Positions 20,366 through 22,325 of a stretch of 34,577 bases of DNA are shown piece by piece (position 1 is the stretch's first letter; each line of letters starts with the position of its first letter). The stretch is from NCBI GenBank assembly GCA_947489135.1, contig CANLCU010000007.1, positions 1 to 34,577 of the forward strand. Reading direction: 5' to 3'. Source of the DNA: Micrococcales bacterium. GTDB taxonomy: Bacteria; Actinomycetota; Actinomycetes; Actinomycetales; Microbacteriaceae. The position numbers were made by a program, and so were the translations under genes. The notes beneath the pieces were generated by a model that saw only the letters and a list, made by a program, of their open reading frames with translations, was not told where the DNA came from and searched no databases.

Positions 20366-21052
20366 ATGGAATTCACTGGTAAAAACATCTTGGTAATTGG
20401 TGGCTCAGGAGCATTAGGTTCAGAGCTAGTGAGACAACTCTCTGCTCAAGGAGCAGTTGTCATGGCAACAGCAAGAAATGCTGACACAGCAGCTCGCATA
20501 CCAGCTGAAGCAGCGGTGAAGCTAGTTGTTGATCTTGAGAGCCAAGACAGCATCAAGACCCTAACTGATTACCTACTAAACCTAAACCAGCCAATTCATG
20601 GCATCATCAACGCAGCAGGTGTTGTTGGTTTCGCCAAAGCAACAGAGACAACTGCTCAAGATGCTGCGAAGCTCATGCAGATCAATAACCTAGGACCAGC
20701 AAGCATCATCTCTGCTCTTCATCCACTTCTTGCTCTAGATAAAGAAGCAGGATCATTTGTTGCTGGAATTACAGGAGTTGTTTCAGAGAAGGTATTCCCA
20801 GGGATGTCTGCCTACACAGTTTCTAAGTCTGCTCACGCTAGCTACCTAGCAACAATCACTCAAGAGTTCCGCAGAGACAAGATTCAAGTTACCGATGCTA
20901 AGCCTGGACACATAGAAACAGGTCTTGCTTCAAGAGCTATCTTTGGAACTGCTCCGGCTTTCCCTGAGGGCATGACTGCTGGCCATTTGGTGAGCGTGTT
21001 GCTAGAGGGTATAAAAGAAGGCAAGCCTGTAATCGGTAGTACCGAGTTCTAG
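20366..21052 (+). CDS. Short-chain dehydrogenase/reductase family protein
   Basis: A 228-residue Rossmann-fold oxidoreductase. The cofactor motif GGSGALGSE is at 12-20, a VVDLE segment follows the adenine site, NAAG lies at about 86-89, and the catalytic pair is in YTVSK (about 151-155). At the usual catalytic Ser position, 13 residues before Tyr, the protein has Gly (in AGITGVVSEK), with Thr one residue further; this may alter activity. The C-terminal part is short. Substrate not predictable. It is transcribed alone, divergent from the gamma-glutamyltransferase gene, and followed by a nested hairpin. Confidence 0.85.
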   Translation: MEFTGKNILVIGGSGALGSELVRQLSAQGAVVMATARNADTAARIPAEAAVKLVVDLESQDSIKTLTDYLLNLNQPIHGIINAAGVVGFAKATETTAQDAAKLMQINNLGPASIISALHPLLALDKEAGSFVAGITGVVSEKVFPGMSAYTVSKSAHASYLATITQEFRRDKIQVTDAKPGHIETGLASRAIFGTAPAFPEGMTAGHLVSVLLEGIKEGKPVIGSTEF

Positions 21053-21073: not shown

Positions 21074-21093
21074 AAGAAACAACTAAGTTTCTT
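21074..21093 (-). terminator. Weak hairpin after the Cys-rich micro-ORF
   Basis: AAGAAAC (21074-21080) and GTTTCTT (21087-21093) form a 7-bp stem with a 6-base loop, immediately after the micro-ORF stop on the minus strand. AT-rich and with little T tract, so modest as a terminator. Confidence 0.35.
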
Positions 21094-21159
21094 CTAATCG
21101 TTTGAGTTACCTTGGCACTTGCAGCCTTCGCCACAACCGCATTCCTTGTCATCCAACAT
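21094..21159 (-). CDS. Cysteine-rich 21-residue micropeptide (putative metal-binding)
   Basis: A short ORF starting ATG (21159) and ending TAG, too short for standard gene calling. It encodes a 21-residue acidic, hydrophilic peptide with four cysteines at residues 7, 9, 13 and 15, spaced CxCxxxCxC with Gly, Glu and Lys between them, similar to metal-thiolate clusters in metallothioneins. A strong ribosome binding site, GGGAGG (21172-21167), lies 7 bases before the ATG, one of the best in the window. The gene lies on the same strand as and downstream of ychF with a 92-base gap that contains a palindrome and a TTGACC, so it may have its own promoter. I do not recognise a named family. Metal binding, redox sensing or chaperone-like roles are all only possible. 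Confidence 0.65.
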   Translation of the reverse strand: MLDDKECGCGEGCKCQGNSND

Positions 21160-21166
21160 CTTCACA

Positions 21167-21172
21167 CCTCCC
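21167..21172 (-). promoter_or_regulatory. Ribosome binding site of the Cys-rich micro-ORF
   Basis: GGGAGG on the minus strand, 7 bases before the ATG at 21159. It is the main evidence that this very short ORF is translated. Confidence 0.7.
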
Positions 21173-21228
21173 AAAGAATCTCTAGTGTTTGAAGTATCGC
21201 AGACCCTCTAAGTTTTACCCTCAATTAG

Positions 21229-21251: not shown

Positions 21252-22325
21252 TTAGACGTTGAACCTAAACTCAACAACATCTCCATCACGCATGACATAG
21301 TCTTTGCCTTCCATGCGGACTTTACCTGCTGCTTTGGCATCAGCCATGGAACCAGCAGCTATGAGATCTTCAAAAGAAACAATTTCAGCTTTGATGAATC
21401 CTCTTTGGAAATCAGTATGGATAACACCAGCTGCCTGAGGTGCTGTTGCACCTTTCTTTATGGTCCATGCTCTAGTTTCTTTAGGACCAGCAGTTAGGTA
21501 GGTCTGTAGGCCTAGAGTGTTGAAACCAATACGAGCAAGCTGGTCTAAGCCAGACTCATCTTGCCCAAGAGAAGCTAGAAGTTCATTAGCTTCTTCAGGA
21601 GAAAGATCAATAAGTTCGCTCTCAACCTTGGCATCTAAGAACACTGCTTCTGCAGGAGCAACTAGGTCAGCTAACTGCTTACGTTTAGAGGCATCGCTAA
21701 GCACAGACTCATCAACGTTGAAGACATAAAGAATAGGTTTAGCAGTTAGCAGACCAAGTTCTTTAATTGGCAGTAGATCAATAGTTGAAACTGATAGAGG
21801 CTTACCTGCATTTAGGAACTCAAGGGCTTGGTCTACTGTGTCAAGAACAGCAGGCTCTACTTTCTTACCCTTAACTTCTTTTTCAATTCTTACTCGTGCT
21901 TTATCTAGAGTTTCTAGATCAGCCAAGATTAGCTCTGTGTTGATTGTTTCAATATCACTTGAAGCATCAACCTTTCCATCAACGTGAATAACATCAGGAT
22001 CAACAAAGCCTCTTACTACCTGAGCGATAGCATCCGCTTCGCGGATGTTAGCTAGGAACTTGTTTCCTAGTCCCTCACCAAGAGATGCGCCTTTAACAAT
22101 TCCAGCGATATCAACAAATGACACAGGAGCTGGAAGCAATTTTTCACTGGAGAAGATATTGGCGAGCTTCTGAAGTCTTGGGTCAGGCAGGTTTACAACA
22201 CCGATGTTGGGTTCAATGGTTGCGAAGGGATAGTTCGCTGCCAACACATTGTTCTTAGTTAGTGCGTTGAAGAGAGTTGATTTGCCGACGTTTGGTAGTC
22301 CGACGATACCGATTGTTAGAGCCAT
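21252..22325 (-). CDS. ychF: Redox-regulated/translation-associated ATPase YchF
   Basis: An OLA1/YchF-type P-loop protein of the Obg-related group, 357 residues, associated with ribosomes and usually hydrolysing ATP rather than GTP. G1 is GLPNVGKST at 9-17, the conserved [12 protein letters not shown] switch follows at about 31-42, and [11 protein letters not shown] is G3. A coiled-coil segment lies mid-protein and a TGS-like domain closes the C-terminus ([22 protein letters not shown] and the final [10 protein letters not shown]). The ATG at 22325 has no strong ribosome binding site, and a 14-bp palindrome lies just upstream of it. It is divergent from the exonuclease gene. Confidence 0.96.

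Follow-up and report, generated by a model that had tools for sequence, protein, structure and literature searches.

Metallothioneins are small, cysteine-rich proteins without aromatic residues that carry CxC arrays; to our knowledge, not many copper-binding ones from bacteria have been characterised, and peptides of 20-26 residues also escape ordinary gene calling. MymT of M. tuberculosis is controlled by RicR, a paralogue of CsoR. It is described as a small Cys-rich protein of 4.9 kDa, encoded by a non-annotated ORF, required for copper resistance and with a predicted capacity of up to six Cu(I) (PMC7558416). The SmtA/BmtA types are described as zinc/cadmium proteins that adopt a zinc-finger fold, with a Cys9His cluster in the Pseudomonas case (PMC7387436, PMC7558416), and the 26-residue protein of Neurospora crassa was once considered the shortest metallothionein (PMC4755600). 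On the side of regulation, TtCsoR counts as a bona fide CsoR; its site CCCCACCCCACCTGGGGTGGGG is palindromic and G/C-rich, and its operon is copZ-csoR-copA (PMC10318464). CopM of Synechocystis, a putatively periplasmic protein, shows strong induction by copper (PMC4182526), and CruR, 145 residues long and with CXXC and RAPP motifs, is a predicted exported protein (PMC9426467).

The peptide described here lies on a stretch of 34,577 nucleotides from a Micrococcales bacterium of the family Microbacteriaceae (GCA_947489135.1, contig CANLCU010000007.1, positions 1 to 34,577), the whole of which we call the window, and it has relatives in other genomes of the genus. By description, MymT is the closest to it in role (PMC7558416, PMC7387436), but the window peptide is about half the size and has a CxCGxxCxC core, no family model common to the two was found, and the gene of the window peptide's relatives, unlike that of MymT, adjoins the presumed repressor. 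Closest in motif, without significance, is the N. crassa Cu-metallothionein, which was the one PDB match of our family profile (1T2Y, with a CNCGxxCxCS core in a 25-residue chain) at an E-value of 5.6, too high to speak for homology; one long relative alone gave no PDB match at E<=10. In comparison with that protein, the window peptide has 21 residues and four cysteines, and its family has a bacterial operon setting. The likeness to the SmtA/BmtA types would be one of Cys-rich metal sequestration (PMC7387436, PMC7558416), whereas the window peptide matched no family at E<=10 in either Pfam or NCBIfam. Five relatives reached at most sub-cutoff Metallothio_5, _2 or _PEC scores in Pfam (best 15.2 vs 25 bits), and in NCBIfam no match was obtained for the three relatives scanned or for the L052 protein described below. 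The loci of the relatives resemble CsoR-controlled copper operons in having a PF02583 gene, a palindromic G/C-rich operator and metal genes behind, and depart from the known ones in that a metallothionein-like peptide of about 25 residues comes first behind the repressor. In Synechocystis, the neighbours of copM are the two-component genes copRS, not csoR and a micropeptide (PMC4182526), and CruR (DUF2946) is comparable as a Cys-containing ORF before copper-related genes (PMC9426467) but differs in length, motifs and arrangement. No such peptide was found for this group in the titles and abstract openings of the literature covered, a scope outside which most subscription journals fall.

The first-pass annotation had drawn attention to a minus-strand GGGAGG followed, after a 7-base spacer, by an ATG and 21 codons with cysteines at 7, 9, 13 and 15 (CxCxxxCxC), a description that proved exact on re-reading (Table 1). 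The ORF ends in TAG and translates as MLDDKECGCGEGCKCQGNSND, with four cysteines in 21 residues, no aromatic residue and no histidine. It is thus small, Cys-rich, free of aromatics and arranged in CxC arrays, and by its build would be metallothionein-like, a very small version of a known type. In-frame TTG and GTG codons upstream of the ATG are possible alternative starts, and the gap between ychF and the SDR gene otherwise holds just very short overlapping ORFs (20-30 aa). The spacer towards ychF includes a 16-nt block containing TGCGATACT, a possible extended -10 element that may serve as promoter of the micropeptide; no sigma-70 consensus promoter was found near the gene. Within the window there was no Rfam match at gathering score and no tRNA was found.

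Table 1. Positions of the features of the micropeptide locus in the window and of genes in related loci (numbering of each locus)
Feature	Sequence	Positions	Strand	Basis or remark
Micropeptide gene	window	21094..21159	-	translated ORF and homologues in relatives
Ribosome binding site GGGAGG	window	21167..21172	-	7 nt (TGTGAAG, 21160-21166) 5' of ATG
ychF GTPase gene	window	21252..22325	-	upstream neighbour; PF06071, PF01926; marks shared chromosomal slot in relatives
Short-chain dehydrogenase (SDR) gene	window	20366..21052	+	convergent downstream neighbour; marks the slot's other side
16-nt block GTCTGCGATACTTCAA	window	21189..21204	-	identical in nearest relative L002, spacer otherwise diverged (alignment)
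Weak A+T-rich hairpin	window	21074..21093	-	directly 3' of stop; z -1.12, 25/200 shuffles fold equally well
Acetyltransferase remnant	L002	1337..1487	+	between ychF and peptide
Acidic, secreted-looking protein	L002	1664..2080	-	
Acidic, secreted-looking protein	L013	733..1086	-	
44-residue, 12-Cys relative	L031	1432..1563	-	
62-residue, 11-Cys protein	L052	1316..1501	-	directly behind csoR
P-type ATPase	L053	1776..3281	+	
P-type ATPase with Cys/His-rich N-terminal tail	L054	1089..2588	+	behind csoR
P-type ATPase with Cys/His-rich N-terminal tail	L055	1785..3284	+	behind csoR
P-type ATPase with Cys/His-rich N-terminal tail	L056	2..1501	-	behind csoR
P-type ATPase with Cys/His-rich N-terminal tail	L057	1788..3269	+	behind csoR

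We compared the window with 200 dinucleotide-preserving shuffles of itself, considering ATG ORFs of 15-40 aa on both strands. An ORF with CxCxxxCxC occurred in three of the 200 shuffles, one with both this pattern and a correctly placed GGAGG in none, and one with any arrangement of at least four cysteines and GGAGG in eight; the real window has one ORF of each class. The earlier judgement that the cysteine pattern together with a strong ribosome site is improbable by chance is borne out by this comparison.

A search of 67 genomes of the genus with the single window sequence gave matches in 12, of which seven were accepted: the window's own, a peptide of G065 that is 81% identical and also lies behind ychF, and five more distant ones. 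The profile built from these seven matched 24 of the 67 genomes at E<=0.5, and when the loci were read individually for start, ribosome site and Cys core, 18 genomes, including that of the window (G000), were accepted and six rejected. Among the 22 good-quality genomes, six had profile matches and four were accepted; 49 of the 67, many of them incomplete, have no accepted member. The rejected profile matches, in G003, G026 (its second match included), G031, G046, G050 and G066, miss the start, the ribosome site or the core, as do loci L005, L007, L009, L010 and L012 of the first search. A pattern scan of contigs confirmed three of 391 matches, but these are not independent members, as they are the same peptides as in G035, G015 and G029.

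All 18 members start with ATG behind a purine-rich ribosome site, which is AGGAGG, GGGAGG, GGAGG or AAGGAG in 17 and AGAAGGTG in L029. The CxCGxxCxC core is present in all except L026, where serine replaces the first cysteine, so that 71 of the 72 core positions are Cys; TGT and TGC both occur in each of the four columns. The aligned members have 4-12 cysteines in 19-44 aa, and the longer ones, such as one of 32 aa with 8 Cys and one of 44 aa with 12, contain Cys modules in repeated form. Each of the three relatives folded has a strong hairpin behind the stop (L015, z -6.29; L016, z -4.90; L018, z -3.48). It had been stated beforehand that close relatives without a conserved ATG, ribosome site or cysteine pattern would speak against a gene, and the relatives keep all three; the gap downstream of ychF in Microbacteriaceae, the place proposed for the search, did contain homologues. 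The window ORF belongs to a real, lineage-restricted gene family. The 12-Cys relative in L031 is apparently a repeat of the CxC module and is not beside csoR; we take its neighbour to be ABC-transporter-like. L014, L016 and L017 carry a second peptide type, with an MIK start and a GGCC end, in loci without csoR or the CsoR palindrome, next to a gene that presumably encodes a DedA-like membrane protein.

Across seven sequence pairs, pN/pS ranged from 0.05 to 0.48. Between L015 and L019, synonymous differences affect 8 of 14 sites and non-synonymous ones 2 of 64 (Fisher p 5e-6), and between L016 and L017 the figures are 7.5 of 14.3 and 1.5 of 63.7 (Fisher p 9e-6, on rounded counts). The window and L002 differ at 3 of 10.7 synonymous and 7 of 52.3 non-synonymous sites, which gives the highest ratio of the seven pairs (0.48) and is not significant (p 0.36). 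The synonymous bias that had been suggested as a check is therefore strong in two close pairs but not significant in the window's own closest pair; in the relatives, the peptide is under purifying selection.

Gene order places the window copy in a shared chromosomal slot. The Rhodoluna sp. contig L041, whose peptide is the same as that of G029, carries ychF-csoR-peptide-copM-SDR on 10 kb, and parts of this order are seen in L015 on the ychF side and in L018, L022, L013, L039 and L040 on the SDR side. The order is ychF-peptide-SDR in the window and ychF-peptide-X-SDR in L002, where X is an acidic protein without significant Pfam match and the SDR homologue, which matches PF00106, is 84% identical to that of the window. 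By position, the window copy is thus the orthologue of the peptide in the slot ychF-[csoR-peptide-copM]-SDR, with csoR and copM gone, and from the synteny with L041 and other relatives its lineage most likely lost these two genes and kept a shortened peptide. The window copy is without the third CxC pair of most relatives and keeps all four core cysteines. With four csoR genes as queries, no csoR remnant was detected beside the window and L002 copies. L002 does contain, between ychF and the peptide, a remnant similar to the acetyltransferase gene found before csoR in L018 (against the L018 gene, local score 39 with 0 of 500 shuffles as high; against the L022 gene, 11 of 500), possibly a trace of the rearrangement that removed csoR; no such remnant is present in the window. 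The acidic, secreted-looking protein occupies the interval between copM or the peptide and SDR in several relatives, has no significant Pfam match and is absent from the window slot.

In nine of the 18 members, a gene of the CsoR family (PF02583) lies directly upstream of the peptide, all nine above cutoff in the genus search (individually scored, L018 has 76.0 and L026 65.6 bits vs a gathering score of 22.8). The contig of L013 starts 32 bases before the ATG, which puts its upstream side off the contig. The other eight members, the window among them, have no PF02583 gene directly upstream; G036, G037, G056 and G064 have one elsewhere in the genome, and none was detected anywhere in G000, G065, G038 and G060, the first two of which are each about 80% complete. 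Since no such gene was detected in G000 or G065, we do not claim CsoR control for the window's host. Where the two genes are linked, the csoR stop overlaps the ribosome site or ATG of the peptide in seven of nine cases, and spacers of 48 (L048) and 37 bases (L049) separate them in the other two. Of 16 csoR loci, a set that leaves out the weak paralogue L059 and the csoR fragments L058 and L060, 14 have an operator-like palindrome, TACCCC-N3-GGGGTA, located 25-31 bases upstream of the aligned csoR start; in the remaining two it is cut by the contig end (L046) or has a one-base variant (L050). The 3-kb loci around members lacking csoR yielded no such palindrome. A promoter-like motif, GCGNATNNT (with a third N other than G), was noticed post hoc in four of eight csoR-less upstream regions; it is absent in the window and L002, and we draw no claim from it.

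The gene after csoR in these 16 loci is the micropeptide in nine, a 62-residue protein with 11 cysteines in one (L052) and a P-type ATPase in six. Scored as whole genes, all six ATPases exceed the heavy-metal ATPase cutoff; of three scanned as cut proteins, only that of L051 does. The membrane motif CPH, which marks CopB-type copper pumps, is present in five of the six, L053 being without it. In this last locus, from genome G050, the csoR match (1501) runs across a TGA. The N-terminal tail of four of the six ATPases is rich in Cys and His and includes a nearly constant CxCDHNPGGECHCPPNECKCD, and it looks like a metallothionein-like module fused to the pump; the tail of the L054 ATPase had no Pfam match at E<=5. 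The L052 protein, from genome G040, is itself metallothionein-like and has no family match above cutoff (Metallothio, 12.1 vs 23 bits). Of the four genes behind the peptide that were scanned for the CopM family (NF049983, cutoff 90 bits), those of L018 (93.0) and L022 (94.9) pass and those of L013 (89.9) and L015 (83.9) fall slightly under; the peptide precedes copM in L015, L018, L022 and L041.

The metal residues of the CsoR proteins, in YC and NHLxTH, form a Cys-His-His and not a Cys-His-Cys site, which makes the sensed metal less certain; a Cys-His-His site occurs in the Thermus thermophilus copper sensor. For the two CsoR proteins scanned, RicR was the best NCBIfam model, below cutoff (54.7 and 51.6 vs 175 bits), and RcnR and FrmR models matched weakly, also below cutoff. 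The idea that the peptide substitutes for a metal pump gained no support, since a heavy-metal P-type ATPase is matched at E<=1e-30 in 62 of the 67 genomes of the genus; in G000 there is one match, below cutoff.

The CxC pairs, the lack of aromatics, the copper-type repressor before the peptide, the CopM-family gene after it and the heavy-metal pump in equivalent operons are together best read as those of a Cu(I)-buffering metallothionein. We regard it as probable that the window ORF is a real gene of an ultra-short, copper-sequestering metallothionein family; the family and its copper context are well supported, and the window copy is likely active. We infer metal binding, copper as the metal, induction by copper, and the expression and function of the window copy. 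Of the roles first proposed, a metallothionein-like, metal-sensing or redox peptide, the metallothionein-like one is well supported, with a gene context in relatives that points to copper; sensing and redox activity found no specific support. The thiolates of CxCGxxCxC would wrap around a metal, most likely Cu(I), and the peptide would buffer or detoxify cytoplasmic copper; four cysteines could be enough for a single small Cu-thiolate cluster, perhaps shared by two peptides. In the relatives, a csoR-peptide-(copM) operon would yield the peptide once the CsoR-family repressor leaves its TACCCC-N3-GGGGTA operator. In the window lineage, where the csoR and copM of the slot would have been lost and the shortened four-Cys peptide stays, it is probably transcribed from a small promoter of its own or together with ychF.

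More broadly, and with confidence only a little above even, we propose an undescribed family among the smallest gene-encoded metallothioneins, in which a lone CxCGxxCxC module, in most members 19-28 aa long, works as a copper buffer, growth to 8-12 cysteines has been stepwise within one genus, the peptide is translationally coupled to its own copper repressor, a similar Cys module is fused to the N-terminus of a copper pump in sister species, and actinobacteria with small genomes can lose the repressor while retaining the peptide alone. A conserved, operon-linked family in such actinobacteria would show that a single four-cysteine module is selectable as a metal buffer, and the natural series from 4 to 12 cysteines could be used to test how such proteins grow.

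Two alternatives concern whether the window copy is a gene that still matters. That it is an untranslated chance ORF in a non-coding gap might be suspected from its very short length, the lack of a sigma-70 consensus promoter and the lack of significant synonymous bias in the window/L002 pair taken alone, but this is already contradicted by conservation: the ATG, ribosome site and Cys core are kept in 18 genomes of this genus and in two from another. With the strong bias to synonymous change in two close pairs, the hairpins 3' of the stop in all three relatives folded and the 0 of 200 shuffles added, we give it almost no probability. A decaying and no longer useful relic of a csoR-linked peptide gene is a more serious, although still unlikely, reading. 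Both the window and L002 have lost csoR, copM and the third CxC pair, the acetyltransferase remnant persists in L002, and the pair's pN/pS of 0.48 is not significant; yet both copies keep all four cysteines, Gly10 and EGCKC, the two of 12 Cys-codon bases that changed between them are both silent, no indel or stop separates them, and the ribosome site has been kept although the spacer diverged.

The remaining alternatives accept a functional peptide and differ on what it does. A copper-sensing leader peptide, an upstream ORF controlling copM in the manner of CruR/DUF2946, would suit the four loci where the peptide precedes copM and the strong hairpin between the two in L015 and L018, but L014, L016 and L017 have no copM, the longer forms carry 8-12 cysteines, and the CXXC and RAPP motifs of CruR are absent from the 21-aa sequence. 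Since the next gene is convergent and no co-directional gene lies directly downstream, nothing is there to control and the role cannot hold at the window locus; overall we consider it very improbable. The operon context would fit equally well a peptide that passes Cu(I) on to CsoR, CopM or an ATPase, as a copper chaperone or in exchange, instead of storing it, and forms with 4-6 cysteines could bind just a few metals. Against this, the cysteine count ranges between 4 and 12, a spread that a buffer would be expected to show, and in the window slot the peptide persists with csoR and copM gone, which leaves handing-on with a low probability. We find a metallothionein for another metal (Zn, Cd, Ag or Ni) similarly improbable: the Cys-His-His site of CsoR, whose residues presumably resemble those of other metal sensors, and the weak sub-cutoff RcnR and FrmR matches point that way, while the CopM-family neighbour, RicR as the best if sub-cutoff csoR model, the CPH P-type ATPases in five of six equivalent operons and the CsoR-type palindrome point to copper.

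Beyond the genus, profile searches found no convincing member in 398 genomes of the family, 347 of the order and 346 of the phylum; outside matches in G487 (order search), whose locus was inspected, and in G1075 (phylum search), judged from a 202-aa frame, look like chance. A search for csoR in 349 family genomes matched 122, of which 121 lie outside the genus, and two of the 29 outside loci that were read (L063 and L064, both from genus g46) have csoR followed by a 25-aa peptide with six cysteines, MTDTTTCNCGGNCQCTANGGSCNCK or a near copy of it, behind the ribosome site AAAGGAGG or TAAGGAGG. As this second genus was very probably included in the 398-genome profile search, which missed it, our distribution counts are lower bounds. 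A further search around G181 (199 genomes) recovered both g46 cases, not the third g46 genome, and no other convincing case; its match in G110, whose locus was inspected, looks like chance. Looking behind csoR, which found the second genus where the profile search had not, offers a simple rule for finding more members. Six of the 29 outside loci have a His-rich, ATPase-like protein.
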